Positions 6,826-48,905 of a stretch of DNA of 64,000 nt are shown here, piece by piece (position 1 is the stretch's first letter; every line of letters starts with the position of its first letter). The notes beneath the pieces are model-generated. The model saw only the letters and a list, made by a program, of their open reading frames with translations, was not told where the DNA came from and made no database searches. Source of the stretch: Pristionchus mayeri (Eukaryota; Nematoda; Chromadorea; Rhabditida; Neodiplogasteridae); contig BTRK01000006.1 of the NCBI GenBank assembly GCA_036245805.1, positions 5,373,613 to 5,437,612 on the forward strand, given 5' to 3'. A program made the position numbers and the translations under genes.

Positions 6826-8132
6826 CAGGGTGTCCAAAAAGTATTGTTACACTTTTGAAACGCGAATTTTTTTAACATGTAGGTCGAGTTGTCAAAACCT
6901 GTAATAACACGTTTGAGCCCACCCTTCGGTGCGTTGAGGGAACCTACTAATTAGTTTCCCATAGTCATGGTTCGTCCAAATCGCTATCGTCAAACTATTA
7001 TCAACCTTTGGACCCTCGGCGACCCCCCAGATTCCATCAGGAGGAAGCTTCGTATTTCCCGAATGACAGTCTATCGCACCATCTCCCGTTTCAAGCAGTT
7101 GGGCACTGCGAAGGACCGTCCAAGATCAGGAAGACCCAAGACCGCTCTCACTCAGAAGAACAGGAGAATCGTGGAGAAGAGAATGAATCGCAATGCCAAA
7201 CGATCCATCAGGAAGATGGCTAAGGATCTCAAGATCTCCAAAGGATCCGTGTGTGCCATCGTTCATTCTCTTCTCAAGTCCTACCCCTACAAGATGAGAA
7301 AGGGCCATGGCCTCACTGATGTCCACAAGCAGAAGCGCCTGGAGAGATGCAAGCTGCTCCTTCAGCGGGCCGATCGTGGGGAGCACTTGACTACCGTTTA
7401 CTCTGACGAGAAGCTGTTACTCTGACGAGAAGTTCTCAGTCGAGGAGGTCTACAACAGTCAGAACACCAGGATCATCGCCAAGTCTCCTCAGCAAGCTGA
7501 CGCCAGAGGTAGAACCATCTCTCGCATTGCCCACCTCCAGGCACTGATGGTTTGGGCTGGTGTGTGCTCGACGGGCAAGACTCCTCTCGTGTTCGTGGAT
7601 CCCGGGGTCAAGATCAACAAGGAGTACTACACCAGGGCAATTCTCCAGAAGGCCCTTCTCCCCTGGTCCCGCTCCCACTTCAAAGGGGCTCGCTGGACCT
7701 TCCAACAGGATTCAGCGCCTGCTCACTCGGCAAAAGTGACGCAGGCATGGTGTCGCGCCCATCTGCCCGACTTCATCTCGAGTGAGGAATGGCCCTCGAA
7801 CTCCCCCGATCTCAACCCTCTGGACTTCAGCATTTGGTCAGTGTTGGAGAAGGAGGCCTGCTCTACTCGCCACAAGAACCGCGATTCCCTCAAGGCAGCC
7901 CTTCTCAAGGCATGGGAGAAGATCGACGTCCCTTACCTGCGGGCCGTCATCGACTCGGTCCCTCGTCGTCTCAGAGAGGTCATCGCGGCCAATGGAGGCC
8001 AGATCGAGTGATCGTGCATTGTTATGTTCATATGGTCACTGATAAATACTGTGCCCCGTTTGAGTTGTCTATGTTGCTTTTAAAGAAAGATACATGGTTT
8101 TATCCGTGTAACAATACTTTTTGGACACCCTG
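6826..8132 (+). mobile_element. Inner mariner element, 1307 bp, DD37D type
   Basis: Perfect inverted repeats of about 27 bp begin CAGGGTGTCCAAAAAGTATT and end with the exact complement at 8132; both ends abut TA (6824-6825, 8133-8134). Length and organisation are those of a complete mariner. The intact ends and GC-rich transposase suggest a young insertion. It sits inside the 6658-8859 element. Confidence 0.93.
6967..8011 (+). pseudogene. Mariner transposase (DD37D) with one 19-bp frameshifting duplication
   Basis: Cut-and-paste transposase that would bind the element ends and insert at TA. The N-terminal half (from ATG 6967) has two helix-turn-helix regions and a SGRPKT linker motif. The catalytic half shows the first aspartate in VYSDEK, the second in FQQDSAPAH and the third in NPLDF. 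Thirty-seven residues separate the second and third, which is the maT/DD37D spacing rather than classical mariner DD34D. A tandem duplication of 19 bp (7399-7417 repeated from 7418) shifts the frame at the first catalytic aspartate. Apart from that lesion the frame is open for about 341 codons, normal for the family. The element may still be mobilised in trans. Confidence 0.9.
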
Positions 8133-9764: not shown

Positions 9765-12640
9765 ATATACATATTTTATTCAATATTCAGGGTCTGGGCC
9801 TGTTGAATGATACATGAATTCCATGCATCGGGGTCTCCTCTACAGTTGCTTGCCCAGTTCACTCCTAGTAAACGATCCATGTCATCGCGCCATCTCGTAT
9901 TAGGTCTTCCTATAGGTCTATTGCGATCCCACGCCGACCACTCCATGATTCTCTTCGTCCATCTATCATCGTCAATAATTGCGAGTCTTCTGGCACAGTT
10001 CCATTTCCTCTGCATAGCTTGAACTCGAATATCGGGTATCGGCACTTTTTGAGATAGCCATTCGTTCGTCCTCCTATCAAATCGAGTTGTTCCAGCTATC
10101 TTTCGCATCATGGCTCTCTGCGCTACAATAAGGCGATTCCGTATTTTCTTAGTTGTATTCCATAGTTCACATCCATACAGCAGGGCAGGTTGTACACACA
10201 TTCGATAAACCCTCGCTTTAAATCCCATTTCGATTCTTCGGTTGGTTAAAAAATCGTAGAAGCGGTTAAATCCTCTCCATGCGGAACCAATTCGGCGATT
10301 CACTTCCAACATTAAGTTTTGATCAAAGGAAACTCTCACTCCTAGGTAGATAAAACTGTTGACATACGCAATGGAATCATGATCGATATACAGTTGGTTT
10401 GGAGTACGATTGCTCATTGCAACAGTCTTCTTCTTATTCACAATTAAGCCAACCTTCTTGCTTTCACGGCATAGATCTTCAACCATTCTTTTCATTTCGT
10501 TTGGGTCGTGGGATATTAAAACTAGGTCGTCGGCGTATCTGAGATGACTCAGTCTCTTCCCGTCAATATTGACGCCATAGTTTTTCCAATCGACGCTTCT
10601 CATACATTCTTCAAGAACAGAATTAAATAAGTGCGGGGATAAAGGATCGCCTTGTTTGACACCTCGCTCCACATCGATCTTAACTTTGCAATTCCCCATC
10701 CTCACGCATACTTTTCCTCTGTTGTAAATATCCTTGAGAATGTTGATGAGTTTAGCATGAACTCCATGATTCAGCAATGATTTCCATACAGCTCCAAATT
10801 CAATGGAATCGAAAGCTTTGAGGTAATCCACAAATACGAAACACAGAGGGAAATCAAATTCGATGGACCGGCTTATCAGCTCAGATATTGCAAATGTGTG
10901 ATCAGTCGTCGCATAATCTCTTCTGAATCCTGCTTGCTCGTGTGGTTGATTGGCATTTAGCGTGCTTTCGATTCGAGTGTCAATAGTTGAGGTTAGAACC
11001 TTGTAAATTAGATTAAGAAGAGAAATTGGCCGATAATTAGATATGTCCAATTGATTGCCTTTCTTGAAAATGAGTGATATGATCAAGTCCGGAAGTGAAT
11101 TGGGGACTTCGCCAGACTGGATCCAATTGTTGTACAGAGGGCATAATGGGTTTACAAGAACGTCAACACCGCATTTGAGCATCTCCGCCGTGATTGTATC
11201 TGGTCCAGCTGAATTGCCATTTTTCAACTTCATTATTGCGTGTTTCACTTCACATGGTAAGATCTCCATGAAAGGTTCGTTAGATTTGGCAATTATTCTC
11301 GGCGATCGTAAAGTTCTCTTGTATAACTTATTGTAAAAGGTTTGAACTACGACATTCATTTCATTCTTCGTTGATGCAATAGATCCGTCGTCTTTCTGTA
11401 GTTGATTCAACTGGATACGACCAATTTGCGATGATTGGAGGGCTTTTTTTTCGTACTGTATCCATATCGAACTGCTTCTCTTACTACTTCCAAGTGCCGC
11501 TTTTTCAGATCTTCAGTAATTGAATAACGAAGAGCTTTGCTTGTCAAATAGTACTCCAGCCTCGTTCTTCCGTCTATCACTTTATTCTTCACTTCTTTTC
11601 TCTGTACAAACAAGTCTTTCGTTCTTTGGGAAAATCTTTCACGTTTTGCTATTGGCATCATAGGGTCTTTCCCAATCGATCGTAACTCCTGTGCGATGGT
11701 ATCATAACTGTTCAGTGGACGAGTTATCGTGTGGATCCTTCTCGTGAATTCTCGCTTGTCGAACTAGGCTTGACGTCGAGGTCGGTGATAAAACTGTTTC
11801 GAGTTTGTAACCAGTTTCAATCTTGCCATTATTAGCCTGTGATCGCTTACAAAGTTGAGGCTTCCTACAATCGAGACATCTTGTACTTTTGAGGTATTTC
11901 GAGACATAATATAATCGATCTGGTTCCTGGTTGTCATATTCGGCGACTCCCAAGTCCATTTCCGCGTGTCTCTCTTCATGAACCTCGTGTTGTGTACAAA
12001 AGTTTCATTTCAGCGCAAAAATCGATCAGTTTTTGCCCTCGTTCGTTTCTTGCTCCAAGTCCATGTTTTCCAATGTACACTTCTTCATCCGACAATCTTG
12101 ATCCCACTTTAGCATTGAAATCACCGCAGACTACTATGTGACCTCTCCCGCCACCCGGTAGATGAACACGATTAACAGATGAGGTCACAAGAGTCGCCAG
12201 TTCATTCAGTAGCTTATCATAATCTTGGTCCGGATGGCTTGACGTAGGTGCATACACGTTGATTACGCGAAGACCGAGAGGTGGGATGTCACAGTATGAC
12301 AATCTATCGTTGACTGAGTGGAAAATTGCGTGAGGTGCCCATTGATTTCCAATTAAGAATCCGGTTCCGTGAGCGGCACGGACACCGTAACCCACTAGCA
12401 GATGGCCACTTGCTGCTAGGGTAAGAGACGTTCGGTCAGTCCTCCTCAGTTCTTGCAAGGCAATGATATCAAAGGGCAGGGCACTCACAGCATCCTCCAA
12501 CTCAGCTACACGAGAGTCCGACTTGAGCGTGCGCGTGTTGAGGCTTCCAATGCGGATGGTGGAGACTTGCATCCAACGGACAGGCGACCCGTGAGGTTGT
12601 CCAGGCGACTCGACGGGGACTCCCACTCGATCGCAGGCTG
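9765..12640 (-). mobile_element. RTE-like LINE, nearly full length, degenerate
   Basis: A non-LTR retrotransposon on the minus strand in the order AP-type endonuclease, linker, reverse transcriptase and basic C-terminal tail. It ends at about 9765 in a short TATACATA-rich tail with almost no 3' untranslated region, like RTE elements. Fragments at 140-429 and 43540-44465 belong to related families. Duplicated units lie upstream of its 5' end (12690-13084). Confidence 0.88.
9776..12626 (-). pseudogene. RTE-like endonuclease/reverse transcriptase, frameshifted
   Basis: The endonuclease part (12626-11976) shows the conserved asparagine (LNTRTL), glutamate (ALQELR), INVYAP, GDFNAKVG and, after a frameshift, SDHRL. 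A linker (11661-11407) follows in another frame. The reverse transcriptase frame (11410-9776, 544 codons) is intact, with fingers motif NYRPISLL, catalytic FVDYLKAFD, the SPHLFN block and the YADDLVLIS active site, then a C-terminal RPNTRWRDD tail. There are frame changes near 11980 and 11765, a stop near 11702, and a shift near 11445 at a run of eight A in the plus-strand complement. This copy cannot make one polyprotein, although the RT domain alone is open. Confidence 0.9.
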
Positions 12641-12689
12641 AGAGAGAAGTGGGAACCGACCACTCCTCACCCGCTCTCGAATGGAGAAT

Positions 12690-13084
12690 GGAGAATGGAG
12701 AATGGAGAATGGAGAATGGAGAATGGAGAATGGAGAATCGAGAATCGAGAATCGAGAATCGAGAATCGAGAATCGAGAATAGAGAATGGAGAATCGATAA
12801 AAAAACGATGAACCTGCACGTGTGAGATTCTTGAGCGCTACTAACGCAAAAGCAAGCAGTAGCCCCTCCTTCAATTAGAATTGTTCAACACACACGGGCG
12901 TTGAATGGAGAATGGAGAATGGAGAATGGAGAATCGAGAATCGAGAATCGAGAATCGAGAATAGAGAATGGAGAATCGATAAAAAAACGATGAACCTGCA
13001 CGTGTGAGATTCTTGAGCGCTACTAACGCAAAAGCAAGCAGTAGCCCCTCCTTCAATTAGAATTGTTCAACACACACGGGCGTT
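12690..13084 (-). repeat. Duplicated 182-bp units with (GAGAATN)n at the LINE 5' end
   Basis: A 7-bp minisatellite (GGAGAAT/CGAGAAT variants) followed by a conserved segment ending in CACACACGGGCGTT is present twice, at about 12721-12902 and 12903-13084. The units lie immediately upstream of the LINE coding start on its own strand, the place where some LINEs carry tandem promoter monomers. Confidence 0.8.
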
Positions 13085-14448: not shown

Positions 14449-17400
14449 TTAAACTTTTCGATCAGTTTGGAGTTGCGAACATGATTGGGACATAACCGCG
14501 TAGTGGCATATGACACAAAGTCGTTCTGGAAAAATTACATTGCCGCAAACACATCGCATCAAAAGCAATATGTAATACATACAAATTATTACATAATCCC
14601 TTCTTCATATTTTCGCTCAGAAGTGGTTGACTCACTCGTGAAAGGTCCCCACATTTTGTTCATTCCGGCTTCAATATGCTCTGTAAAATACTGTGCTATC
14701 TCATCAATTTCCGACATTTTGCACTTGCGGGCCCTTTCGACACTGATCACACCAACTAAAGAGATGCTGATAATCTGCAATTAGGTACTCGGATGAAACC
14801 TACTATACTGTACAAATGCCCCTACGGTTTCAAATACAAGTATCGCCAAAATAATTCTTAATAGTTCTTATTAGGGCTGTAAGAACGGATCACGGGTCGA
14901 CCTTGTGACCCTCTAAAACGGGTCAGATACGGGTCGGTCAGACCGTCGGATACGGGTCAGACACGGGTCAAGGGTGAGAGCGAGAAAGGAAGAGGTAGAC
15001 CGAGAGATTGCGGTAAATATTTATGATATTTCGTTCGAAATAACGTTAACAAAATTGAAATAGAATAGGCAAGTAATGACAGTTACAGTGAGGAGTGGAC
15101 AATGGGGTCAGGGGGATCTACTCAGGGGAACTGGCTTGATTCTCGGAATTTACTAAAAGCCTTACCGCTCTTGAAAAGAAGCTATTGTGTCAGTAGTTGT
15201 GGTTCGATCCAGGATTATTGAAGGTCATTCCGTTTCGAGTGTAGTAAATTTTGAAATAATGTGGTTTTCGGTTGGAAATACTATATTTGCCTCGGATGAG
15301 ATTTGTTGCTACTCTCATATCAATCGCTATTCTACGCTTCTCTATGCACTCAATGCCTAGTTTCTTGTTGCGATCGAGAGCAGAGGGCATGTTTTCCCAA
15401 GTGTGATTGAAACAGCGCATAAATAAGCGCCTTGTGAAGTAGTTCTGTACTTTTTCGAGTTCTTTTTATCATTACTTTGGTACGGGTTGAATACGGAGGA
15501 AGCGCTTTCTAAAATCGGTCTAATATACATTGAGTACGTTTTGAGAAGTACTTCTATATTTTTGGTTCGTAAGGCTCTGAGGATAGTATGGCAGGCAGTT
15601 TTGCCTTTAGTGGATACGGTAAAACAATGGTCGAAGAATGAGAGGTTTTTTCTGAATAACAAAGCCGAGGTCTTTCACTTTTTCTTTTTGTTCTAGAGTT
15701 GTGGTTCCAATAGCATATGTTCGCTTTGTATTTGCTCTGCCTAGGTGCAATGAGTTACACTTATGCGCAGCAAGCGGGAGTTGCCACTCTTCAGACCAGT
15801 TTACTATAGTGTCAATCGCAGTTTGTAGAGGGGCAGGCGAATTTCCCTTCCTAAAGGATCGATATATTTTTATGTCATCGGCATACATTCTCGCAACGAC
15901 TCCGTGGTTTTGAACTAGGGCAGGAATTTCTGAGGTGTAGATAAGGAATAGCAAAGGGCCTATGACTGAGCCCTGTGGAACGCCGCTAGTTACAGGCATC
16001 GAGGTAGAAAGCACATCTCTTACTCTCACTTGGAATGATCTATGTGTGAGATATCCTGTTATCCAGTTGATTGTATTATCGGAGAGACCTATGGTGGTGA
16101 GCTTGAGTTTTAGCTTGGGATGAGAGACTCTATCAAATGCTTTCGCAAAATCAAAATAGATAACGTCAACTGGTTTCCCATCACTAATAGAGGCTGTCCA
16201 GTGTTCGAGGACTTCGAGCATTTGAAGTTCACGCGATCGTTTCTTACGGAATCCGTATTGCTCATCGGGGAAAATATCTAATTGTTCACAATGGGTGATA
16301 ATGGATTTACACAAGATGCGCTCAAAAACTCGACAAAAGAAGGATATAATTGAGATGGGCCTGTAGTTTAGGGGATTGGAAAAATGGGGTGATTTCTTCA
16401 CTGTGGTTACAATGGAATGTCTCCAATGGGCGGGGACCGTTACAGATTGATAGGAGTTCCTAAAAATGATTTCAAGTGCTTCAGAAATAGGTACAGCAAT
16501 TCGTTTTATGAAGGTTAGGTCAATGTTCTCAGGGGTTTTACAGGAGGAGCGTTTCCATTTTTCAATAATAGCACAGATTTCATGATTTCATGATTTCATG
16601 CCTAATTTCACTAACTGGCATTTTTCCATCATCGATGGTGAACACGCTAATAAAAGTTTCGGCAAGTAAGTGTGCTTTACTTAAGTCATCCATTACTAAA
16701 GTGCCATTAGCTCTCTTTAGGCCTTCTGCTCCCTTGGATTTATTAGAACAACGTTTCATGAAACAAAAGAACTTGGTCTTATCATCGCTTTCGATCACTT
16801 TTTTCTCAATGGTTTTATGATATCGTTGTAACTCTTTACGAAACTTTTTGTTTAGAATCTCGAATTCATGCTCATCGTTTGGGTCGTTGCTATTAATCGA
16901 TTTGTGCCAGGCTTGAAAACGCTTTCCTAATAGACGTTCAATATGAGGAGGGAGTTTCCCGTGGGAGAGGCTCACTTTAGTCCATGGAACATGGATGTCT
17001 ATTGATTTTTGAATGACGCTTATCAAGAGGTCGTACATGAGATCAACATTTGATATTTTAGAAAATGCGCATGCCCAATCGATGTTTGCTAATTGTGAGT
17101 TAATGAGGTCATAGTTAGCATTTCTGTAGTCACGCCTAAGAGTGAAAGCGGGCGTCGAATGACTCATTGTGAATTTGAATTCGACCGTTGAATGGTCAGA
17201 CATTTCGAAAGGGGGACCAATTTCAGTTTGGGAGAGAGGCCGGGATGGTTGCACAGTAGTAAATCAAGGATATTTTCTTTTCTGGTAGGTTCTTGGACAA
17301 ATTGGGCTAGTTTTGCTGAGTTACAGAGATCGAGGAATGATTGTGAAGGAGGGGTAACTGATTTTTTCTGTGGAATGGGGAAGATTGACCAGTCGATATC

Positions 17401-20400
17401 GGGAATATTAAAGTCGCCAGTAACTATTGTTGGTTGAGGACATGAGCAAAGGTTAAGAATTGACTTAGTAAGAGAGGCAGTTTGTATCGTACTCGCTTTG
17501 GGATTACGGTAAGCGCACACAATCCTAATTAGGTCACCATCGACTGCCAATAATTCATGGGATTCAGGTACTGTTTCATCAGCAATCTGTGCTGCACTTA
17601 TGGACGAGTGTAGGATGATCGCTACACCACCGCCTCTAGAGTTCCTATCTCTTCTGAATACATTGTAGTACTGATCTTGGTCACCTAGGAGAAGTGAGGT
17701 AGGAAAGGATGGAGAGAGCCAAGTCTCAGTGAGGCAAATCATATCATACTTTTTAGAAAGGGTTTGCGAAAGATACTGTAGTTTGTTTTGGACGGAGCGG
17801 CAGTTGGCTAAAATGGCGGAGAATGAAAGTGAGTTTCTGTCTGAGTGATTATTTTTGGGCCGGTGAATCAGTACCAGTTTCCCTGGGCTCCGAAATTGGG
17901 TGGGGCACCGAACTGAGAAATGTGAGCCATGAAGAGGTTATGGTGGGGTTACGGAATGGGGAAAGGGTTCATTGGCATCGGGATATTGAAGAGGGGGCGG
18001 AGGGGCTCCATAACCATTCATCTTGTGCATGGGGTTCCGGGAATGGGTCAGAGGAGGGCGGCTCATTCGGGGGATCTGCGGTCGCTCATTTGGATGGCCA
18101 GGACCACGATTGTTGGAGAAGACTGAATCGCGGCGACTTCTGGTCCTGTTCCGATAGGTGTCATCGTTGAGTTGAGGGCGGGTCTGGGTCTGATTGAGGG
18201 GGGGCGGACGAGTGAGCGAGGGCTGAAGGAGGCGCAGGTCCATTCCTTCCACAAGCCTTGCCAGGGATCTTTCGTCTCGATCCACATAGGAAGGACGAAT
18301 GTAAACATCTCTGAAGAATGGATCGCGGGAGACGCGATTCGCATTCTTCACAAAGAGTTGCGCGTGTTTTCGGGTCGGAAGTACAACTTTGGTAAGTCGC
18401 GAATGGGGACTATCCACATCTGCAGGTGGCATCCTGTACACGGTAATAGGGAGACAGGGGTACCCAGTGAGTGCGGTGAGGGATATCACTTGGTTGTAGT
18501 CTTGACGGACTTGCGCTTCAGGACTCAAGGATGAGTCAGTAGGTAGACGGGCGATCACTACGCTCCGTTCGAGGTCAGACTCGTGGGGGGAGGGGGAGGG
18601 AGGGGAGGGCGGATCAGTGCGGGGAATGTCATTACGAAGGAAAGAATCCATCTCTTCATCCTCATCAATGGTACGCTACTCGGGAGGAGGGTCAAGACGG
18701 GTCTCCAACTTCACGAGTCTGCTAGTGTATTCGACTTGCTGCTCGAACTGGGAGTTGAGACGGAGACAGTAGCGGAAGAGATCCTCGACTGAGGTCGAGA
18801 TGAACTGAGATCCTCTCCTTTTCTTCGAAGATGGTCCGACTGGCGAGAGAGCGGGCGTCATGTCTGAGAAAGAGGGGTGGCAGGCGGGGAAGGATCACCG
18901 TTGAGGGTACGGAATCAAGGGGTATGCACAGTCGGTACGCTATGCCGGCGAAATCCCTCAAGGGAGGATGGGAAGGGCAGGGACGAGAGAGCGTGTGGAA
19001 TAGAGAGAGTGCGGAGAGAGAGGTAGAGACACCTCTCTCGATGAGGGATGAGAATAGACTGAGGGATGAGAATAGACTGAGCGATGGGAATAGACAAATG
19101 GAGAGAGCGCCGAGAGACGAGTCTCTCGGCGCTCTCTCCATTTACCGCACACTCTCGGTCTTGCTCTTCCTTTCGAGAGGGAGTGAGAGCCGCTTCTAAC
19201 CCGAATTTACGGGTCAGACACGGGTCAGGTTCATAAAATCGGGTGACCCGGCGGAATGGTGAATAGCGCGGATCACCCGTGACCCGTTCTTGCCGCCCTA
19301 GTTCTTATGCCAAACCAACACATAAATTGCTGTTGAGAAAAACTAACCACGCCACCGTAATGAATCCATACGTCATGTTTCTCCAACTTCTCAAATACCT
19401 GAATAGATATGAGCCTGGTTGCGTAAGAATCGAACAAAGTTCTAAAGGGTCTGGCACAACAATTTAGCGAAAACTTGAGGAAAGGGGTTCTCGAGGGTGC
19501 TGATCATAATGATCAACTTCATTTTGCACCATCTCGACCGGTTGAGCCAGGCTGCATGTAGGCTGCATCTACGTTTTTGTCGATAACTCTGCAACCGATT
19601 GAGGAATCACCTTCAAATTTGAATAGTGGGTAATTCTCACTACCTTTAATCCGATTTTTGCTAATTCTTTAATTATCTTAATTTTTAAAAATATGAAAAG
19701 TTGGATCTCGAATATGAAGAATTAGTAAGGTTAATGAAATACATAGAAAGATGCGCCATATTCTGAGGATCATTTTTCGGATACATAGTAGGGGAAACAA
19801 GCTAATCACTTTTGTGCTATGATTAGTTTTCTGATGCATTTTCCACTCTTCGCCGCGCTAATTGGGAGGAGAGTGAGAAATGAGATTGAGTTTCACTGCC
19901 AACTATACTCTCAGATCTATTTATCTCGTGGCGAGTGACGAGGAGGGTATATGTGGCCGTGAAACTCATTCTAATTTCTCATTTACCATTCGTTCAGCAC
20001 GGTGAAGTGTGGAAAATGAATCAGAAAACTAATCGTAGCAAAAAAGTGATTAGCTTTTTCCCCTACTATGTATCCGAAAAATGATCCTCATAATATGGCG
20101 CACTTTTCTATATATTTCATTGACCGTACTAATTCTTTCTATTCAAGAACCAACTTTTCATATTTTTTTAAAATTAAGAAAATTAAAGAATTAACAAACA
20201 TCGGATTAAAGGTAGTGAGAATTACCCACTGTTCAAATTTGAAGGTGATTCTTCATTCGGTTGCAGAGTTATCGACAAAAACGTAGATGCAGCCTACATG
20301 CAGCCTGGCTCAACCGGTCGAGATGGTGCAAAATGAAGTTGACCATGATGATCAGCATCCTCGAGAACCCCTTTCCTCAAGTTTTCGAAAATTTGCTGTG

Positions 20401-20963
20401 CCAGATCTTGTTTGATTCTTACGCAACCGGGCTCATATATTATTGTAAATATTTAAATTGAATATCGATTTGTATAATTTAACTCACACCGCGGTAATCA
20501 ACAATCCAGTCACTCATAAAGAACTTGTATTCACGCTCGAACATCTCACAAACGATTCTGAATTAAAATTATCGAATGATTGATAAGTGAATAAATGTCA
20601 AACAAATCAGTCCTAGTGAGAGTGTTAAGAAACCAAGGTATCGTTTCATGAATAGACTCCTATTTTTGGAAATGGAACTCCATTCATGCAGTATCTTCTC
20701 ACCTCATAGCTTTATGCTCCCTTTCAGCTCCCTTTTGTACTATTGGAGCATTTGGCCTATAATAAACAAGAAAGTTACATATTATTATATGCCAAAACGT
20801 AATGAATGATACCATTCAAAACCTGCCACGGCAAGTCTCCAGATGATGTAATCATCTACAAATCCCTTCACAGATAGCCGAGGATCCTGAGAAGAATGGT
20901 TGTCTCTAGCATGCAGCTCACAATATCCGGTACCTCCCAATCATTGGCGTACACAACAGCCAT
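14449..20963 (-). CDS. ced-9: CED-9-like Bcl-2 family protein, seven exons
   Basis: Exons on the minus strand: 20963-20934, 20886-20813, 20756-20703, 20557-20488, 19398-19348, 14774-14636, 14525-14449. Phases agree at every junction and give 164 residues. A BH4-like segment (residues 16-35) reads VKGFVDDY..W.L...GFEW. A BH3 segment (45-67) contains MRIVCEMFE, matching hydrophobic-x2-hydrophobic-small-acidic-x-Phe. A BH1-like segment (88-104) has HYGG followed by IISISLVG. A BH2-like segment has MNKMWGPF. In C. elegans CED-9 sits on mitochondria, restrains CED-4 and is released by EGL-1. Intron 1 is 47 bp. Introns 4 and 5 are swollen by transposons to 1.1 and 4.6 kb. The last exon is least certain and no clear C-terminal membrane anchor is seen, so the C-terminus may be incomplete. 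The product is shorter than CED-9 (280 residues). Confidence 0.78.
15190..18861 (-). pseudogene. CR1-like LINE: ORF1, endonuclease and reverse transcriptase, degenerate
   Basis: ORF1 (18861-17938) has an N-terminal heptad-like stretch, an in-frame TAG at 18676, a nucleic-acid-binding-like middle (RSVVIARLP) and a proline/arginine-rich tail. The next open stretch begins straight after the ORF1 TAA (17938-17940) in the same frame and holds the endonuclease: CLTETWL, AYRNP, GDFNIPDIDW; SDHS follows in another frame near 17190. The RT domain (16401-15607) has NYRPISI, FDFAKAFDR, SGVPQGSVIGPLLF and YADDIKIY. A triplicated TCATGATT near 16577-16598 and further shifts near 15610 and 15400 break ORF2. 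Domain order and motifs fit the CR1/Jockey group. Confidence 0.85.
19096..19143. repeat. Perfect 23-bp hairpin
   Basis: The arms at 19096-19118 and 19121-19143 are exact reverse complements with a 2-nt loop (GA). The hairpin sits just inside the right inverted repeat of the hAT-like element, upstream of the LINE. Confidence 0.9.
19411..20434. mobile_element. GAGCC-family foldback, 1.02 kb
   Basis: Left end GAGCCTGGTTGCGTAAGAAT and right end its near complement; the arms pair for about 480 bp around a small loop near 19925. It lies inside intron 4 of the CED-9-like gene; without it that intron would be 65 bp. Related ends occur at 25268-26282, near 31945, and near 42140-42172. Confidence 0.9.
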
Positions 20964-21002
20964 TTTGCAGCAGCAGTATACGGTTATGTTGATCTACTGT
21001 CT

Positions 21003-21012
21003 TCTGAAAAAA
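21003..21012 (-). promoter_or_regulatory. Probable trans-splice acceptor of the CED-9-like gene
   Basis: On the minus strand TATTTTTTTCAG precedes AAGACAG, 40 nt upstream of the start codon at 20963. A stop lies in frame between the two, so the ATG at 20963 is the first usable start. This is the arrangement expected for spliced-leader addition. Confidence 0.5.
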
Positions 21013-22467: not shown

Positions 22468-25400
22468 ATGAGTGGCTCACCTTCCACGAGGAATGTGTTC
22501 AAGAGAGCTTTAAATTATCTTATTTTCCCATTTGCCAAATTCATCAGAAATCAGGAGAGGAACACAACCGGGAAATCAAATTCATTGAATGCAATAGCAT
22601 CCGATTTGCATTCGACCGAAAACAATTCTCCAAATATCATTGAGTCCGAGAGTATTTCCCTCTCAAATATTCCTTGCGATATAATCCGAATGATCGTTTC
22701 AATGACTGCAGATCCACTTCGATTAAGAACGGTTAGTTATTTCCTTTTTGAAAAGGTGTAGCGCAAATTCGCTCAATTAGGACTACGTATGAGAAACTTT
22801 CTGAGAAAACTGAGCAATACTACCTATAGACCATACAACGAAAAATAAGGTGTTGATTTTAACATCACTAGGGGTAACTTTTCACGTAGAATTCGAAAAT
22901 CGACCTTAGAAAGCCGTATCTCGAACACATCATTTCGCGTTTTTCGCCGAATTTGGGGGTCGGTTTTTGTATTTTTTGAACGGATCATCCAAACTCCTTA
23001 CATGTATAGTAATGCTGAAAGATCTCGAGGAGAGAAACATTTTTACTGTTGAAAATGAAATGCTAGCTAATCTGTGAAAAAAAGTTATGAGCCTTTGAAA
23101 TGTAAAATTCCCGCCCTGAAAATTTTCCGTGGGAGGGAGTTTTTTAATTTGTACGCATTCGATTCAGCGTGAAAAAGTACCCCTAGGGTCAACTTTTTAG
23201 TCCCAAAAGCATGAACCATTTAGGTCATTGGATACGCCAAAGTGTTCCGAATAGCATATTTTCGCAAAATCGAATGTTCCAATTTGTTTGAAATGTCGAC
23301 CACTGATCTCATAATTAATCACAAAACTTAAATAAGCTCTGAAATGAAAAGAATAACTCGTTCCGAGTACTTTTAAGCACTGGATACCCGATTATTGTAA
23401 CTTTTCGGAGGTTGCAAATTTTACGGCGGTTTCCGTTCTTAGATCGGTTTCCCTGTCTGGGGAACTTGAGCAAACCTCCATATCAAGTGGTACCAGGACT
23501 AAGTGGTACCAGGTGAGCACCCTCTGGAACCAGGTAGGTACCACGTGGCATGAGAAAGGCAGCAAGAGGTTCCATGTCAGTACCAATAAGCATCAGGCCA
23601 GTTCTAAGTTCGTCAGTTCCAAGTGGTTCCAGGTATACACTAAATGGTACCAGACTAGCACCAAGTGATACCAGGCTAGCACCAAGTGCTACCAGGTCAG
23701 TACCACATGGTACCGCTCCGAAGCATAACCGGGATACCAACATGTACCAAACAGCATGGCATCCGTCATCAGAATTGAAAATGCCAAAAAATTTAACAAA
23801 ATCAAACTCGGCAAAAGATCAATGCATCGGATGGGATTTAACCTGCGCAGGTTTTAACCCCCCCCCCCCATCGCCCCATGTGGTAGCAGCACCACCAAGC
23901 ACCAGGTCAGCACCATATGGTACCAAGTCCTTTTCATGCTGGACCAGGTCCAAACGTAACGAGGCCCGTATCAACTGGAACCACCATAAGTGTACATTCA
24001 GTACCGGTTGGTACCACTTTGGAAGGACTTGGTTTTTCCTGGTTACGGTATGTCTCCGTCTTGCCTCGTACGTTACGGATCTGGTGCCGTTTGGTATGTG
24101 CCAGGAATCATTGGATTAGTTATTTATGTTCGGCACTTGTTGGTATGGATCAGGCTACACATGCAACGGAGTGGTACCACGTGACACAGACCGGGTACAT
24201 GTTGTTACTTACCTGTGACTACATGATACTGACCTGGTAGCACTTGGTGCTAGCCTGGTACCATTTAGTGTATTCATGGAACCACTTGGAACTGACATGG
24301 GACAACTTAGAACTGACCTCATGCTTATTGGTACTGACATGGCACCTCTTGCTGCCTTTCTCATGCCACGTGGTACCTACCTGGTTCCAGAGGGTGCTCA
24401 CTTGGTACCACTTAGTCCTGGTACCAGTTGATATGGAGGTTTACTCAAGTTCCCCAGGCAGGGAAACCGATCTAACATGGACATGGTCAGAACTCACATA
24501 TCCCGATCTGTACAATATTTCACGGTTGAAATTTGGTCCCTATGAGATTCTCAAAACCGTTTTCTAAAGTTCCAAAATATTCCTGGGAGTTGAATTATGA
24601 ACCTTAATAAGTTTTAGTGGAAAATCCTCACGCAATCTCTCCGGCACTCTTCATCAGCCTTTCACACCAACGGCTCAACAGCAGCGGTGGTATAGTGGTT
24701 TTTTGGAAGGTTGTCATTGCAAGTCCAATTTTCCGAAGTATTGAAATTAGAATGTTTTGAAAATTTACGGCTGCATTTGAATTGATATGTTCGAGAGATT
24801 CGAGAAAAGTGTTTCGAAATCATGCTTTCATCTTCATGTGCAGGAAGATGTAGAGGATCCATCTTGTTATCATGATAATAGCGAAAAACGTTCCAAATGT
24901 TAACAGCGGTAAATGAAGCCCATTTACAGTAAAATAGTAAAACTGCAAGAGTAAGGGAGTGTGTCGAATGATCACGATTCAGAAAGTTCGAAATATTTTC
25001 TTTTTTTATTCAATTCCAGATAAATTCAAATGTAACCGTAAATTGTCAAAACATGCTAATTTCAATACGTAGTAACATTAGACTTGCAATGACAACCTTC
25101 CAAAAACGGGCAAAAAGTTTCGCACGGAGGAGGAACGAACCACATCCTTTGCCACACCGCCACACATCACTACCACTGTACCACCGCTGCTGTTGAGCCG
25201 TTGGTGTGAAAGGCTGATGAAGAGTGCTGGAGAGATTGCGTGAGGATTTTGCACTAAAACTTATTAAGAGCCCGTTCGCGTAAGAGTCGGACAAACCTTG
25301 GCACATCAAATTTTCGAAAATTTGCCTAATGGGGTTTTCGAGGGTGCTGATCATCATGATCAACTTCATTTTGAACCATCTCGATCGGTTGAGCGAGGCT

Positions 25401-28400
25401 GCATGTAGGCTGCATCTATACTTAAGCACGTATCTCAGCAAACGTTTTATGAAACGATTTGTAATTTGTACATGTGATAGATAAGACCCTAACGATGTTT
25501 TAGAAATATAATACTCATATTTTATTACGCGACAAACTCATGAAATCGACGTTCTCGAATATAAGGCAAAACTTAAAACCGAAAACTATATGGTAAGATG
25601 CGTCTTATGCTGGGGATCATTTTTGGTATGCTATGTTGGGTATTTGAGTTAATCGCTTTTTTGCAACAATTCGTTTTCTGATGTCAGATTCGTCTCTGCC
25701 AAGAGAGTCTTGCGCTTTCGATTTGTTTTCCGGTTATGTTTCAACTTGGATTCATATATTTCTTGCCAGGGGCAATGTGTTTGGGGAAAATATATTAATC
25801 GAAGTTGAAACTTAACCGGAAAACTAATCGAAAGCACAAGACTCTCTTGACAGAAGTGAATCTGACATCAGAAAACGACTTGTAGCAAAAAAAGCGATTA
25901 ACTCAAATACCCAACATAGCATACGAAAAATGATCCCAAGAATAAGACGCATCTTACCATACAGTTCTCGGTTTTAAGTTTTGCCTTATATTCGAGAACG
26001 TCGATTTCATGTGATTGTCGCGTAATAAAATATGAGTATTTTTTTTCTAAAACATCGTTAGGGTCATATCTATCACATGTACAAATTACAAATCGTTTCA
26101 TAAAACGGTTGCCGAGATACGTGCTTAAGTATAGATGCAGCCTACATGCAGCCTGGCTCAACCGATCGAGATGGTTCAAAATAAAGTTGATCATGATGAT
26201 CAGCACCCTCGAAAACCCCATTAGGTAAATTTTCCAAAATTTGATGTGCCAAGGTTTGTCCGACTCTTACGCGAACGGGCTCATAAGTCAACTCCCAGGA
26301 ACATTTTGGAACTTTAGAAAACGGTTTTGAGAATCCCATACGGACCAAATTCCAACCGTGAAATATTGTACAGATCGGGATATGTGAGTTGTGACCATGT
26401 CCATGTAAGAATGGAAACCGCCGTAAAATTTGCAACCTCCGAAAAGTTACAATAATCGGGTATCCAGTGCTTAAAAGTACTCGGAACGAGTTATTCTTTT
26501 CATTTCAGAGCTTATTTAAGTTTTGTGAATAATTATGAGATCACTGGTCGGCATTTCAAAAAAAATTAGAACATTCGATTTTTCGAAAATATGCTATTCG
26601 GAACACTTTGGCGTATCCAATGACCTAAATGGTTCATGCTTTTGGGACTGAAAATTTGACCTTAGGGGTACTTTTTCACGCTGAATCGAATGCGCACAAA
26701 TTAACAAACTCCCTCCCACGGAAAATTTTCAGGGCGGGAATTTTAACATTTCAAAGGCTCATAACTTTTTTCACAAATGAGCTAGCATTTCACTTCCAAC
26801 AGTAAAAATGTTTCTCTCATCGAGATCTTTCAGAATTACTATACACGTAAGGAGTTTGGATGATCCGTTCAAAAAACACAAAAATTCGGCGAAAAACGCG
26901 AAATGAGGGGTTCGAGATACGGCTTTCTAAGGTAGATTTTCGAACTCTACGTGAAAAGTTACACCTAGGGACATCTTAAAATCAACACCTTATTTTTCGT
27001 TGTACGGCCTATGGTGAATCCTACCAGATAGTCTCTTGTATGACTTTGCAAAGATAAAACGCACCATCTCAGAAAACCAAAATATTCCTGGCACTGGCCG
27101 AAAATTTGAATTCCTTCTGACTTCACCAAGGTAGTACTCAACGAGAGAAACATACGAGCGTCGATAGAATTTCGATCCGCATCCGCGCGGGCGCGGGCGC
27201 GGATCAGGCGAAAACTACAGTAATCTCGGAAAATTTTTATATCGACTCAGATCGCTTTCGCGGTAGGGGCGCTGCATTCCTTGACAAATTCTAAGACTTT
27301 TTTACTTCGAGGAGTTTATCGATCAGATTTGAGCTACGGTCCGAAATCGAAATTTCGACTTTTCATTCCGACATTTATGCAATTCCCCGAAAAGTTTTCA
27401 AGAACCTCCACACTTTTTATTGGCGATTCTGTTTCTACATGCACTTATACACATTTCATTAGAATATTAGAATTTTAAAAAAATATAGTATTCGATAAGA
27501 ATGCGGAAATAGGTGACCAACTTGAATTGTGGTGTAAAAAATACTGTAACCGCTTTTTCCGAATTTGCAAATTTTCCATAAAATCACTTGATTTCTGCTT
27601 CCGCATTGACTGTTCGACATCGGCGGCACCAGTGGATCATAAAACAAGCCTTTTTATTGAAAAATAGCAGGTATTGGAAAAAGCGGTTACAGTATTTTTT
27701 ACACCACAATTCAAGTTGGTCACCTATTTCCGCATTTTTTATCGAATACTATATTTTTTAAAAATTCTAATATTCTAATGAAATGTGTATAAGTGCATGT
27801 AGAAACAGAATCGCCAATAAAAAGTGTGGAGGTTCTTGAAACATTTTCGGGGAATTGCATAAATGTCGGAATTAAAAGTCGAAATTTTTGACCGTAGCTC
27901 AAATCTGATCGATAAACTCCTCGAAGTAAAAAAGTCTTAGAATTTCTCAAGGAATGCAGCGCCTCTACCGCGAAAGTGATCTGAGTCGATTTAAAAACTT
28001 TCCTAGATTACTGTAGTTTTCGCTCAGTTTCACGCCCGCGCCCGCGCGGATGCGGATCGAAATTCTTTCTACGCTCGTAAGTTTCTCTCGTCGAGTACTA
28101 CCTATTGGTGAAGTCAGAAGGAATTCGAACTTTCGGCTAGTGCCAAGTCGCTGAAGAAATATGTTGATTGTCTCAGATAGTGTGTATTAAAGTGTTGCGA
28201 ATTTAAGAGACCTACTCCGTAAGACTCAACCATTTCGGTCACCTCGCGGACACATTTGAACTAGCAACGGGAACCGTGGGGTCCCCCTTTGGTGGGAGGA
28301 GTTTATGTGACCCGCATTATGAAATTCGATACTAATTACATGTTACGGTCATTAATCAAGAAGAAAATTTAAATAATAGGGGAAATGCCGAAAAATTCAT

Positions 28401-35710: not shown

Positions 35711-36901
35711 AAACATCAATTTCGACACATTAATATCAGTATCTGAGTATGCAATATTGCATTTTTTAAAAGAATCATTTCAAGTCCACTTGAAAATAAA
35801 TGTGAGCTTACCATGGAAGGCACTTAAAGTTTAAATGCATTTGAAATAGATAGACTTACGGCTACGGCTATGCGGTGTAAGAAACTGATTCCGACCAAGC
35901 CCTTTTTGACGAAAGATCAAAAAAGACCTGAGTTTCTGTAACGCTTTCTGTGGTAATCCCTATTTAGATATTTCTTTATTGTGCTTGCTCATCACACTTT
36001 CCAAATATACCTTGATATTTGCGTTATAACGGATGTCCGTAGAGTGCTGATCCCAAATGTAGTTCAGATATCAAAAGCAGTAACTTTAACTTTGAAATGT
36101 GACCATGATATCAAAAGGTTTCGTTTATACTAATGTGTGATAGAAAGAGTATCCAATCACTCAACGAATATAGGAAACAGTATGAAAAGATCTTGAGAAT
36201 AAAAGACGGCGTATGCTTAAAACGAAAATTGGAAAATCGGGAAAAACTTTTGTTACAACCTGATATCATCATCTCAGATCATATGAAGGCGTCAAAAAAT
36301 ATATTGTGACATTAAACATAAATAAAAACAATTAAAACCTCCATGCGAGGTAAAAAAAAAACTTGGCAAAAACTTTCCGTCGCCGACGGGAATCGAACCC
36401 TGGTCGGCGATTGCGCGCTAGTTTTTCGAGGAAAAGTCAGATGCTCTTTCGAATGGTGTATAACTTGTGGGGTCAAAATCAATATGAAAATTTTCGATCT
36501 GAAAGTTCAAAGATCAACTTTGGGGTCTAGTTTTTTGGATGAAGTGTATCCCACCCCTAAGCACTCTATCCATAAAGTATAAAGCTCCGGTGACGATTTT
36601 GAAAGATTGTGCCACTCCGCCTTTCAAATCTGACTTTCTTAGGGAGACAGCGTTATAAATCGTGTTGAACTAATTGTTTTATTTTTTATTTTTGAGAAAT
36701 TTGTTTTGAACTTTCAACGGTTTTTTTAGAAACGGGTTTTCGAGACCGCTGAACATCATGGTATGCTTCATTTTGCACTAAACCGACCGGTGTAGCGGGG
36801 CTGCACATTGCTCCATTTTGGATTTTCCTAAATAACTCAAAAACGAAGCAACCGATTGACTTTCAATTTTCAGAGGTGGCCAATTTGATGATTAAAATTG
36901 A
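35711..36901. other. No gene recognised; tRNA 3'-half remnant and foldback fragment
   Basis: At 36379-36412 the minus strand reads CCAGGGTTCGATTCCCGTCGG, a perfect T-arm-like segment without a 5' half. From about 36700 the sequence is one arm of a foldback related to the GAGCC family, continuing at 42019-42172 on the far side of the LTR element that split it. Confidence 0.45.
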
Positions 36902-43539: not shown

Positions 43540-44465
43540 AGTAGCTCTACAGTTTGTAGAGCTGTCGAGGAGTCCGCCAAGGGGATACCCTCTCCCCTCG
43601 TCTCTTCAACGCAGTGCTACGATCAGCCATGGACAACATTGACTGGGAGTCAGATGGAATTAGAATCGACGGAAGGAACCTTTGCCACTTGGAGTATGCC
43701 GATGACGTGGCTCTCGTTGCCAAATCTCGACCCGAGCTGGAACGAATGCTGAAGAAGCTGATGGACGCGTGCAGCCGAGTTGGTCTCGAAGTGAATGCAA
43801 GCAAGACCAACCTCCTCACCTCCTGCACCTCTACCCGCAATCCAATAATCATCGGCAATCTGCGATTCGAATTCGTCGATAGCGCCACCTATCTCGGATT
43901 AAGAATAGCTCTTCCCTTGGATCATTCCGACGAAATAGAACACCGGATTCGATTAGGGTGGCTGGCCTGGAGTAAGCTCTCGCACCTCCTATCTTCTCGA
44001 ATTCTGTCCATCAAGATCAGGAGGAGAGTCTTCGAGAGCTGCATCACGGCTACAGTTCTCTATGGGTGTGAAGTATGGGCTCTGAGATCTAGCGAGAAGG
44101 AGAGGCTGAGAGTCACCCAGAGGAAGATGGAAAGAAAGATGCTTTTAGTCACGCTGAGGGACAGATGGAGGAATGACCGCGTGAGAGGGATTACCAAGCT
44201 GAGAGACTGGAATGAGGAAGGATTGAATCGAAAAGCGCTCTGGGCCCTCAAGATCAGAAGAATGGGAGTGGAACAGTGGAGCCGTGCGACAACTGTCTGG
44301 ACTCCATTCAATAGGACTCGTCCCCCCGGAAAGCCTCGCGCGCGATGGAGAGACGACCTATCCCGAGCTATTGGCAGCCATTGGTGGAGTGCAACTTATG
44401 AAGACTACCGACCTATCATCTTCTGAGCGTTTCCGCCTGATAAGATAAATTGATTGATTGATTGA
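43540..44465 (+). pseudogene. 5'-truncated RTE-like LINE, reverse transcriptase end
   Basis: Open from about 43566: RGVRQGDTLSPRLFNAVL, then the YADDVALVAKS active site, a thumb region and the C-terminal GKPRARWRDDL motif, with a stop at 44426. A short 3' end with the microsatellite tail (ATTG)n at 44448-44463 follows. The N-terminal endonuclease and first RT blocks are missing. The frame itself is intact for about 285 codons. It differs from the 9.8-kb LINE, so it is a second RTE-like family. Confidence 0.88.
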
Positions 44466-44655: not shown

Positions 44656-44930
44656 TTAATTAATCTCGATATAGTGCAATCGAGAGTACGAAACTTTCTC
44701 TATGCCGTCAGATTGTCTGGACTGGCACGCTGAGATCCAATTTGAATTTTAGCCCGTCGAAAAAAATCGAAAACTCGACTATGTTGTACCTATTTTGCGT
44801 TATATATTGTTCTGATAGGTCGGTAGATACGGCTTGTTTATTCCATCGTGTTGTAGTGCAGTTTACGGGCTGTATGCACTGAGCGTACAAGCGAAATAAA
44901 AAAATAAGTTTTAGAGAAACATAGCAATTA

Positions 44931-47900
44931 CGGTAACCCAAGCTACAGTAGCCTACATCGGCAGTTCTCTGCGGCGCGCAGTCCTTCCACAACCTCACCT
45001 CCACATCTGGAACGAAAGAGCCGATATAGATCTCGTGGGAGAGAGAGAAAAGAATACAGTCAGAATCTTACAGTAACCCAAGCTACAGTAGCCTACATCT
45101 GCAGTTCTTTGCGGCGCGCAGTCCTTCCACAACCTCACCTACACATCTGGAACGAAAGAGCCGATATAGATCTCGTGGGAGAGAGGGAAAAGAATACAGT
45201 CAGAATCCTACAGTAACCCAAGCTACAGTAGCCTACACCTGCAGTTCTCTGCGGCGCGCAGTCCTTCCACAACCTCACCTACACATCTGGCACGAAAGAG
45301 CCGATATAGATCTCGTAGGAGAGAGGGAAAAGAATACAGTCAGAATCCTACAGTAACCCAAGCTACAGTAGCCTACACCTGCAGTTCTCTGCGGCGCGCA
45401 GTCCTTCCACAACCTCACCTACACATCTGGCACGAAAGAGCCGATATAGATCTCGTGGGAGAGAGAGAAAAGAATACAGTCAGAATCTTACAGTAACCCA
45501 AGCTACAGTAGCCTACATCTGCAGTTCTTTGCGGCGCGCAGTCCTTCCACAACCTCACCTACACATCTGGAACGAAAGAGCCGATATAGATCTCGTGGGA
45601 GAGAGGGAAAAGAATACAGTCAGAATCCTACAGTAACCCAAGCTACATTAGCCTACACCTGCAGTTCTTTGCGGCGCGCAGTCCTTCCACAACCTCACCT
45701 ACACATCTGGAACGAAAGAGCCAATATAGATCTCGTGGGAGAGAGGGAAAAGAATACAGTCAGAATCTTGCAGTAACCCAAGCTACAGTAGCCTACATCT
45801 GCAGTTCTCTGCGGCGCGCAGTCCTTCCACAACCTCACCTGGCACGAAAGATCTGGCACGAAAGAGAATCTGGCACAAAAGAGCCGATATAGATCTCGTG
45901 GGAGAGAGGGAAAAGAATACAGTCAGAATCCTACAGTAACCCAAGCTACAGTAGCCTACACCTGCAGTTCTCTGCGGCGCGCAGTCCTTCCACAACCTCA
46001 CCTGGCACGAAAGATCTGGCACGAAAGAGAATCTGGCACGAAAGAGCCGATATAGATCTCGTGGGAGAGAGAGAAAAGAATGCAGTCAGAATCCTACAGT
46101 AACCCAAGCTACAGTAGCCTACACCTGCAGTTCTTTGCGGCGCGCAGTCCTTCCACAACCTCACCTGGCACGAAAGATCTGGCACGAAAGAGCCGATATA
46201 GATCTCGTGGGAGAGAGGGAAAAGAATACAGTCAGAATCTTACAGTAACCCAAGCTACAGTAGCCTACACCTGCAGTTCTCTGCGGCGCGCAGTCCTTCC
46301 ACAACCTCACCTGGCACGAAAGATCTGGCACGAAAGAGAATCTGGCACGAAAGAGCCGATATAGATCTCGTGGGAGAGAGAGAAAAGAATACAGTCAGAA
46401 TCCTACAGTAACCCAAGCTACAGTAGCCTACACCTGCAGTTCTTTGCGGCGCGCAGTCCTTCCACAACCTCACCTACACATCTGGAACGAAAGAGCCGAT
46501 ATAGATCTCGTGGGAGAGAGGGAAAAGAATACAGTCAGAATCCTACAGTAACCCAAGCTACAGTAGCCTACACCTGCAGTTCTCTGCGGCGCGCAGTCCT
46601 TCCACAACCTCACCTACACATCTGGAACGAAAGAGCCGATATAGATCTCGTGGGAGAGAGGGAAAAGAATACAGTCAGAATCCTACAGTAACCCAAGCTA
46701 CAGTAGCCTACACCTGCAGTTCTCTGCGGCGCGCAGTCCTTCCACAACCTCACCTGGCACGAAAGATCTGGCACGAAAGAGAATCTGGCACAAAAGAGCC
46801 GATATAGATCTCGTGGGAGAGAGGGAAAAGAATACAGTCAGAATCCTACAGTAACCCAAGCTACAGTAGCCTACACCTGCAGTTCTCTGCGGCGCGCAGT
46901 CCTTCCACAACCTCACCTACACATCTGGAACGAAAGAGCCGATATAGATCTCGTGGGAGAGAGGGAAAAGAATACAGTCAGAATCCTACAGTAACCCAAG
47001 CTACAGTAGCCTACACCTGCAGTTCTCTGCGGCGCGCAGTCCTTCCACAACCTCACCTGGCACGAAAGATCTGGCACGAAAGAGAATCTGGCACGAAAGA
47101 GAATCTGGCACCAAAGAACCGATATAGATCTCGTGGGAGAGAGGGAAAAGAATACAGTCAGAATCCTACAGTAACCCAAGCTACAGTAGCCTACACCTGC
47201 AGTTCTCTGCGGCGCGCAGTCCTTCCACAACCTCACCTACACATCTGGAACGAAAGAGCCGATATAGATCTCGTGGGAGAGAGAGAAAAGAATACAGTCA
47301 GAATCCTACAGTAACCCAAGCTACAGTAGCCTACACCTGCAGTTCTCTGCGGCGCGCAGTCCTTCCACAACCTCACCTGGCACGAAAGATCTGGCACGAA
47401 AGAGAATCTGGCACGAAAGAGCCGATATAGATCTCGTGGGAGAGAGAGAAAAGAATACAGTCAGAATCCTACAGTAACCCAAGCTACAGTAGCCTACACA
47501 TGCAGTTCTTTGCGGCGCGCAGTCCTTCCACAACCTCACCTACACATCTGGAACGAAAGAGCCGATATAGATCTCGTGGGAGAGAGGGAAAAGAATACAG
47601 TCAGAATCCTACAGTAACCCAAGCTACAGTAGCCTACACCTGCAGTTCTCTGCGGCGCGCAGTCCTTCCACAACCTCACCTACACATCTGGAACGAAAGA
47701 ACCGATATAGATCTCGTGGGAGAGAGGGAAAAGAATACAGTCAGAATCCTACAGTAACCCAAGCTACTGTAGCCTACATCTGCAGTTCTTTGCGGCGCGC
47801 AGTCTCTCCACAACCTCACCTACACATCTGGAACGAAAGAGCCGATATAGATCTCGTGGGAGAGAGAGAAAAGAATACAGTCAGAATCTTACAGTAACCC

Positions 47901-48042
47901 AAGCTACTGTAGCCTACATCTGCAGTTCTTTGCGGCGCGCAGTCTCTCCACAACCTCACCTACACATCTGGAACGAAAGAGCCGATATAGATCTCGTGGG
48001 AGAGAGAGAAAAGAATACAGTCTGAATCTTACAGTAACCCAA
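44931..48042. repeat. Satellite array, basic period 140 bp, 21 units
   Basis: Units beginning CAGTAACCCAAGCTACAGTA start at 44931, 45071, 45211, 45351, 45491, 45631, 45771, 45934, 46097, 46243, 46406, 46546, 46686, 46849, 46989, 47169, 47309, 47472, 47612, 47752, 47892, with a partial one at 48032. Spacings are 140, 163, 146 or 180 bp. Longer units gain copies of a 17-bp subrepeat AATCTGGCACGAAAGAG. Repeated short frames in it change phase from unit to unit and are not genes. Confidence 0.97.
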
Positions 48043-48905
48043 AATAAGACGAAGAAACTTGGATAAGTGATGAGCAGGCAACGGCGAATCGTTTGAGATA
48101 TGCGCCGCTCAGATCAATGTTGAAATCGAAACTTCATCTGATTACGGTAACACGAATAAACCTTTTTAATGGTGACCTAGATGAAGCATATGTGCACTGA
48201 GTGGGAAAATATCTCATAAGAGATTAAGGCTATTACTCAAATTCTCCCTGCTACCCTTCCCACATCCGTCCCTTCTCAATCCCCATCGGCTGGTTTAGGG
48301 TGGTCCGCAGTCTGCTCGCGTCAGGGGGCTAATGAAGATGGGAGGAATCAAAGCATCACATACTCCTGTTTGATTTCCCTCAACACTGAGGGTCGTCTCT
48401 CAAGGAAGATCAGCAACAGCTCTACTCGCTCAGATATTATACCGATTACACCGACAATTTTACCGAGATAATATTGTCGAAGATAGGAAACACGATGATG
48501 CTTCTACAAGTTTTATCTATTCAAACCGAAAAAGAAACCACGAGTCAGAAGGGAGAGCATAAACAAAGAATTAACTAAAATAGTGGATGGCCAAAATTCA
48601 ATTAGATAAAGAGGACTCCGATCTTCTCATAGAACATGTAGAAGATGAATGGAGTTTAAGTGTCGATGACCAATCGATGAATGGAGAAGGATCAGTCGAG
48701 CGCATCCTCAAATATATTATGCCAATATGAGAGAAAAAAGTAGTGGCGAACAAACACTTCTTGAGTTTCCACCTATCTATTCCTCCCAATTCTCTCCCAG
48801 GAAAAATAGCCTTCAGAGGAGGAAGTCCGTTGTTGTAAAAGCTTCACAAAATATTCATCTACCATATCCAACAGACTTGGGCAAATATAAATTAATAATT
48901 CCAAC
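48043..48905. other. Flank of satellite and 3' region of the next gene
   Basis: Intergenic sequence. Further exons of the minus-strand gene at 48906 could lie here (an open frame follows a weak TCTGAAG acceptor at about 48807), but I cannot settle the 3' end. Confidence 0.35.

Follow-up and report, generated by a model that had tools for sequence, protein, structure and literature searches.

A frameshifted copy of a putative ced-9 paralogue in a duplication cluster of a nematode genome

Introduction

Can a chain of seven small exons be the ced-9 gene of a nematode, and if it is not, what is it and where does it come from? The question is raised by positions 14449..21006 of a stretch of nematode DNA of 64,000 nucleotides (the window, C6:5373613-5437612, in an assembly of 290.8 Mb and 73 contigs). 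A sequence-only reading had drawn there, on the minus strand and between transposons, a CED-9-like gene of the Bcl-2 family, and had taken it for the CED-9 orthologue. Judged from its sequence, the window holds one of several copies of a diverged ced-9 paralogue, in a recent duplication cluster on contig C6. An intact ced-9 lies on another contig, C3, and five bases are missing where the sixth exon of the window copy ends.

Homology of the window gene to CED-9

All seven exons stand where they had been drawn, the six introns all run GT..AG, and the 164-residue model is open from an ATG at 20963 to a stop ending at 14449. The in-phase chain is not due to chance: when solved structures were searched, CED-9 was matched by residues 7-63 (1ohu at 7.4e-12, 2a5y at 9.4e-12 and 1ty4 at 1.8e-11), which supports a gene of the CED-9/Bcl-2 family in small exons, and the Bcl-2 homology (BH) segments BH4 and BH3 of the model align with CED-9. 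Weaker matches in the same search were to vertebrate Bcl-2 chains, from 0.022 on, and to four designed repeat proteins, at 0.0008-0.003, none of which had a stretch that passed by itself.

The coding part of exon 1 (20934..20963, minus strand as all exons of the gene) was read directly from the ATG and ends in a phase 0 junction, as in ced-9 of contig C3; upstream of this ATG, a T-rich AG acceptor ending at 21004 could be used for trans-splicing. Exon 2 (20813..20886), which encodes BH4 and helix 1, matches CED-9 and ends in a phase 2 junction as in C3, and exon 3 (20703..20756) also matches CED-9. The BH3-like segment is found in exon 4 (20488..20557), 11 codons shorter than the C3 exon, and the first part of BH1 in exon 5 (19348..19398), which is 4 codons shorter than the C3 exon and is flanked by phase 0 introns, as in C3. 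Exon 6 (14636..14774, 139 bp) extends from BH1 to helix 6, and its 3' end is five bases short in relation to four of four sister copies. The last exon as drawn (14449..14525) is out of frame in the window copy.

Profile evidence was ambiguous: the sequence search against CED-9 was clear, whereas Pfam Bcl-2 (PF00452) scored 13.0 bits over residues 59-130 of the window model, under the curated cut-off of 31.4. An out-of-phase variant of the model gave nothing over the Pfam cut-off, and the C-terminal half of the 164-residue model did not stand out from shuffled sequences against CED-9, as 195 of 1,000 scored at least as high. The window alone therefore secures exons 1-3 and the BH3 part of exon 4, and not the remainder. 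When spliced with our own script against a Bcl-2 profile of five proteins, the gene was recovered as far as the beginning of exon 4; from there the alignment followed false paths, as introns were cheap. With the empty-site sequence, the whole profile recovered exons 1-6 in one of six settings (three ended in exon 4 and two in exon 2), and the C-terminal part of the profile alone recovered the junction of exons 5 and 6 in two of six. Relatives of the gene were then used to settle the exons.

The ced-9 gene beside SDHC

The ced-9 of contig C3, of which the exons were read and aligned with our own script, encodes 221 residues that include BH4, BH3, BH1 and BH2, and a hydrophobic stretch is seen by eye at its C-terminal end. 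Its residues 4-166 match CED-9 at 1e-30, and its Pfam Bcl-2 score of 41.1 bits is over the cut-off. Exons of SDHC lie upstream on the same strand, legible to about 22905124, and ced-9 starts at 22904806, which leaves a gap of about 0.3 kb. This SDHC was first located by a weak profile match (17.4 bits, E 0.67, below cut-off); its joined pieces match the complex-II subunit 3vr8_C, which we take to be of Ascaris origin, at 1.1e-53. In C. elegans, ced-9 is the downstream neighbour of the SDHC gene (cyt-1, also mev-1) in one operon, an arrangement of which no statement was found in the literature searched. A six-frame scan of the window did not find the SDHC hallmark pattern, in the form used for the scan. 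By its position and completeness, the C3 gene is the positional ced-9 orthologue and, as far as sequence can tell, the main ced-9 of this worm.

The six introns of C3 ced-9 have phases 0,2,2,0,0,0, and those of the window model have phases 0,2,2,0,0 for introns 1-5 and phase 1 for the sixth. Introns 1-3 and 5 coincide to the residue when the two genes are aligned; around intron 4 the alignment has gaps, and in one alignment the C3 position is three columns away. Exons 5 and 6 are confirmed because intron 5 is common to C3, as similarity to CED-9 alone did not confirm them. In relation to C3, exon 4 of the C6 type has 11 codons fewer and exon 5 has 4 fewer, a difference of about 15 residues between BH3 and BH1. 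The C6 type may have lost the helix 4-5 loop of CED-9, as exon 5 is four codons short, but the alignment places the absent residues farther upstream.

Copies of the gene on contig C6

DNA of exons 1-4 is found at four places on C6: the window, 5519513, 5500882 and 5306834, the last of which (copy D) has 90% identity. Exons 6-7 are found, among the matches listed, at five places (the window, 5510623, 5503418 on the opposite strand, 5513227 and 5495052); of the 40 matches listed, out of 732 candidates, the remaining 35 are confined to a short repeat close to the edge of the query. Copy A (5494935-5502222) and copy B (5513110-5521700) both hold the full gene with the same insertions, and are at 97-99% identity with the insertions included, although a few hundred bases of a long interspersed nuclear element (LINE) present in B are absent from A. 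All borders of introns 1-6 are AG/GT in both, and all exons are open through BH2, with no hydrophobic tail seen by eye. The match at 5503418 is a 3' fragment in an inverted duplication, and that at 5510623 a 3' fragment in a direct duplication. In copy D only exons 1-4 are present, and exons 5-7 were not found in 5.3 kb downstream.

The peptides of exon 1 and of exon 2 are each identical in the three other C6 copies that hold the exon (3 of 3; A, B and D for exon 1), and exon 3 has no nucleotide change in relation to copy D, whereas flanks and introns differ by about 10%. Residues 64-171 of the sister-copy model beat all 2,000 shuffles against each of the relatives on C3, C1 and C2, as does the segment of exons 5-6 (BH1), which is not above shuffles against CED-9 (293 of 2,000 reached its score). 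For residues 64 onward, the shuffles of 2,000 that reached the score were 4 against C4, 10 against C5b, 7 against CED-9, 2 against Bcl-xL and 70 against Bcl-w.

The region C6:5492000-5521700 around the ced-9 copies consists of nested direct and inverted duplications, mostly with 98-99.8% identity.

Loss of the BH2 frame in the window copy

Alignment of five C6 copies shows five bases at the end of exon 6 that are absent from the window copy and present in the four others, so that exon 6 measures 144 bp in A and B and 139 bp in the window. The junction that precedes exon 7 is in phase 0 in C3 and C1, directly behind the BH2 tryptophan, whereas its phase is 1 in the window. In the four sister copies exon 6 ends with this tryptophan and exon 7 is read in a BH2-like frame, up to a stop a few codons past the one of the 164-residue model and with no hydrophobic tail. 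The BH2 frame was assigned because this phase is common to the relatives and the sister copies. The absence of the five bases therefore means that the window copy is frameshifted, that BH2 is lost and that the last 25 residues of the 164-residue model are out of frame; this 25-residue tail has no resemblance to BH2 and alone is not above shuffles. Of the proposed order BH4-BH3-BH1-BH2, BH4, BH3 and BH1 stand and the BH2-like segment falls. A recent pseudogene is the most probable state of the window copy; at best it would encode a protein without BH2. An explanation of the window tail by a homopolymer or an alternative donor was dropped once the sister copies were aligned.

Most members of the Bcl-2 family, though not all, have a C-terminal hydrophobic anchor. 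The window model has none, and in 1.4 kb around and below exons 6-7 the sole hydrophobic stretch seen by eye lies past the stop and is split by indels among the copies. As a candidate tail anchor this stretch was rejected, since it needs a 29-bp intron and the indels break it; a further exon may still encode an anchor.

Transposons in the introns and in the window

The proposed setting between transposons is right in substance, with transposons inside introns 4 and 5, and these two introns are long because of the insertions. Intron 4 holds a fold-back element with inverted arms (19407..20438), similar to a miniature inverted-repeat transposable element, without which it has 57 bp. Relatives of this element are parts of the window at 25265-26285 and 36729-36805, and a further one is found at C1:6222669-6222887, where it follows closely on the beginning of the final exon of the ced-9 paralogue on C1. 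The insertion in intron 5 (14872..19300), without which this intron has 136 bp, has TAGGGC/GCCCTA ends and an 8-bp target duplication at 19301-19308 and 14864-14871, a pattern that we take to be hAT-like. It carries a LINE with a reverse transcriptase frame (15610..16587, minus strand; PF00078, 115.9 bits) and an endonuclease frame (17167..17937, minus strand; PF03372, 45.2 bits).

Elsewhere in the window, further LINE reverse transcriptase frames are found at 9779-11512 (minus strand) and 43560-44423 (plus strand), and a further endonuclease frame at 11979-12884 (minus strand). Positions 6955-8008 (plus strand) show by eye a Tc1/mariner-like transposase in two overlapping frames, with helix-turn-helix matches over cut-off and a DDE_3 match of 26.1 bits, under the cut-off of 28.6. 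A satellite-like array occupies 44700-48100, and its frames repeat a peptide of the type ERADIDLVGEREKN. Scans of the window for tRNA genes, and with Rfam at gathering scores, gave no hits.

The ced-9 family across the genome

A protein search of the genome, with E values up to 10, found ced-9-like exons on six contigs, C1 to C6. The search gave at least 31 matches from 30 scored candidates, with E values of 0.18 and 6.6 for the weakest two, and these counts are lower bounds. A protein tree of nine rows joins the six loci of this worm at 82/75, with CED-9 outside, and the five loci other than C3 at 86/87. The models in this tree were built by us; only part of C4 and of C5b is covered, and the models of C1, C2, C4 and C5b lack resolved ends. 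Four very similar matches to ced-9 exon 6 lie on C5 at 5054711, 5382493, 5393576 and 5401621; the two that were read by eye, 5054711 and 5382493, are broken.

A genome search for the caspase family, with 4 candidates scored, gave at least one match, so that the ced-9 expansion is not mirrored in caspases at the search sensitivity used. At least two genes of spliced leader 2 (SL2) RNA are over the gathering score, at 49.9 bits vs 41 (48 of 32,468 first-look candidates scored). SL2-like leaders are reported to be confined to Rhabditina, clade V (PMC1657053), which places this worm there. A survey of 89 nematode taxa reports multiple BCL-2 genes only in clades I and III, with two to five BCL-2 proteins in 15 species, all of these two clades (PMC7456325). 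Among the titles listed, none apart from this survey dealt with ced-9 duplication, and no paper on such duplication in clade V was found in the open-access literature, which does not show that none exists.

Origin of the C6 copies

The explanation of the whole that we hold to be probable is that of a non-operonic CED-9 paralogue which was duplicated, diverged and was amplified on C6, and of which the window copy is frameshifted. It builds on the observed homology, common introns, copies, insertions and five-base frameshift. The duplication would have taken place at the DNA level, because the introns are kept, and most simply from the C3 ced-9 beside SDHC. The paralogue would then have diverged to 34% identity with C3, become about 15 residues shorter between BH3 and BH1 and, to the eye, been left without a C-terminal hydrophobic tail. 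Transposons would have entered two of its introns before it was copied within about 215 kb of C6, and the five-base frameshift would have removed BH2 from the window copy. Copies A and B may encode a short soluble CED-9-like protein, which could bind BH3-only proteins or CED-4 and thereby tune the main CED-9.

Constraint is seen in coding exons 1-3, where the window and copy D differ at 2 of 158 sites, with a nonsynonymous divergence (dN) of 0, against 98 of 1,008 sites in flanks and introns (p = 9e-5). This test excludes the 43 leader bases of exon 1, which show 4 changes; with these taken as non-coding, p = 6e-5.

Other results weigh against the amplified paralogue. The constraint is limited to exons 1-3 and is not seen in the other exons. 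Exon 4 differs between the window and D at 6 of 70 sites, with dN 0.088 and synonymous divergence (dS) 0.090, and looks neutral. The window differs from A and from B at 1 of 538 exon sites each, whereas the flanks and introns differ by about 1% (p = 0.09 and 0.06), and with the transposon columns taken as non-coding this test is not significant (p = 0.26 and 0.72). Furthermore, the BH2 tail of the sister copies is not above shuffles on its own against CED-9, Bcl-xL, C3 or C1, and the sister-copy model has no listed match to Pfam Bcl-2. In the protein tree support is modest, and the C6A row is the longest branch among the nematode rows.

The main rival is a C6 cluster that is dead throughout: a ced-9 duplicate would have decayed, been copied passively along with its transposon-rich surroundings, and no copy would give a useful protein. 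The neutral look of exon 4 fits this, as do the 15 codons by which exons 4 and 5 are shorter than in C3, the absence of a visible tail anchor, copy D with no exons 5-7 found in 5.3 kb downstream, the two extra copies that are 3' fragments, the frameshift of the window copy and the broken copies on C5. We nevertheless judge a wholly dead cluster unlikely, as copies A and B keep their exons open and the splice borders of introns 1-6, and exons 1-3 are conserved in relation to D (p = 9e-5); the low exon divergence from A and B points the same way but fades with the transposon columns.

It is less likely still, and in our opinion improbable, that the window copy is functional, either because the five bases were lost by an assembly error or because the new 25-residue tail is used. 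Its splice sites and an open frame to the last-exon stop remain, so that the transcript need not be destroyed, and a five-base error is possible in one copy of a near-identical repeat. However, all four sister copies have the five bases, and the tail in the frame of the 164-residue model is unlike BH2, though the sister tail alone is also not above shuffles. That the window gene is the CED-9 orthologue of this worm, to which its Bcl-2 family membership would lend itself, is hardly credible beside an intact C3 ced-9 downstream of SDHC, a frameshifted window copy and a window in whose six frames the SDHC hallmark pattern is not found.

The window copy of the amplified paralogue is thus probably dead or dying, and the point of interest is the expansion of the family. 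A more far-reaching proposal, which we put forward tentatively and consider doubtful as a whole, is that this Rhabditina nematode has built a ced-9 family on six contigs, one type of which is locally amplified and apparently has no tail. Between BH3 and BH1, where CED-9 has its CED-4-release loop, this type is about 15 residues shorter, and it may therefore modify the cell-death switch as a soluble protein or serve there as a decoy.

Comparison with known systems

Apoptosis was learnt from C. elegans, a member of the same clade with a single Bcl-2 gene, that of CED-9. The present genome offers natural variants with a short BH3-BH1 region, with no BH2 or with no visible tail. It also shows that an exon chain of correct appearance can be a frameshifted duplicate, which only sister copies reveal.

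The window gene resembles C. elegans CED-9 (1ohu, 2a5y, 1ty4) in the N-terminal segment through BH3 (residues 7-63), and the order BH4-BH3-BH1 is common to both. It differs from CED-9 in that it has no long N-terminal extension and is shorter between BH3 and BH1; in addition, the window copy has no BH2 frame, no hydrophobic tail was seen in it and it does not stand beside SDHC within the window. With the C3 ced-9 it shares introns 1-3 and 5 in position and phase, and intron 4 in phase. C3 ced-9 has 34% identity to a C6 sister copy and, unlike the window copy, is full length with BH2 and a hydrophobic C-terminal stretch and passes Pfam Bcl-2. Finally, this genome has more than one BCL-2-like gene, as do nematodes of clades I and III in the survey, and differs from them in belonging to clade V (PMC7456325). 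With a complete ced-9 beside SDHC and relatives on five other contigs, it breaks the pattern, as given in that survey, of multiple BCL-2 genes in clades I and III only (PMC7456325).

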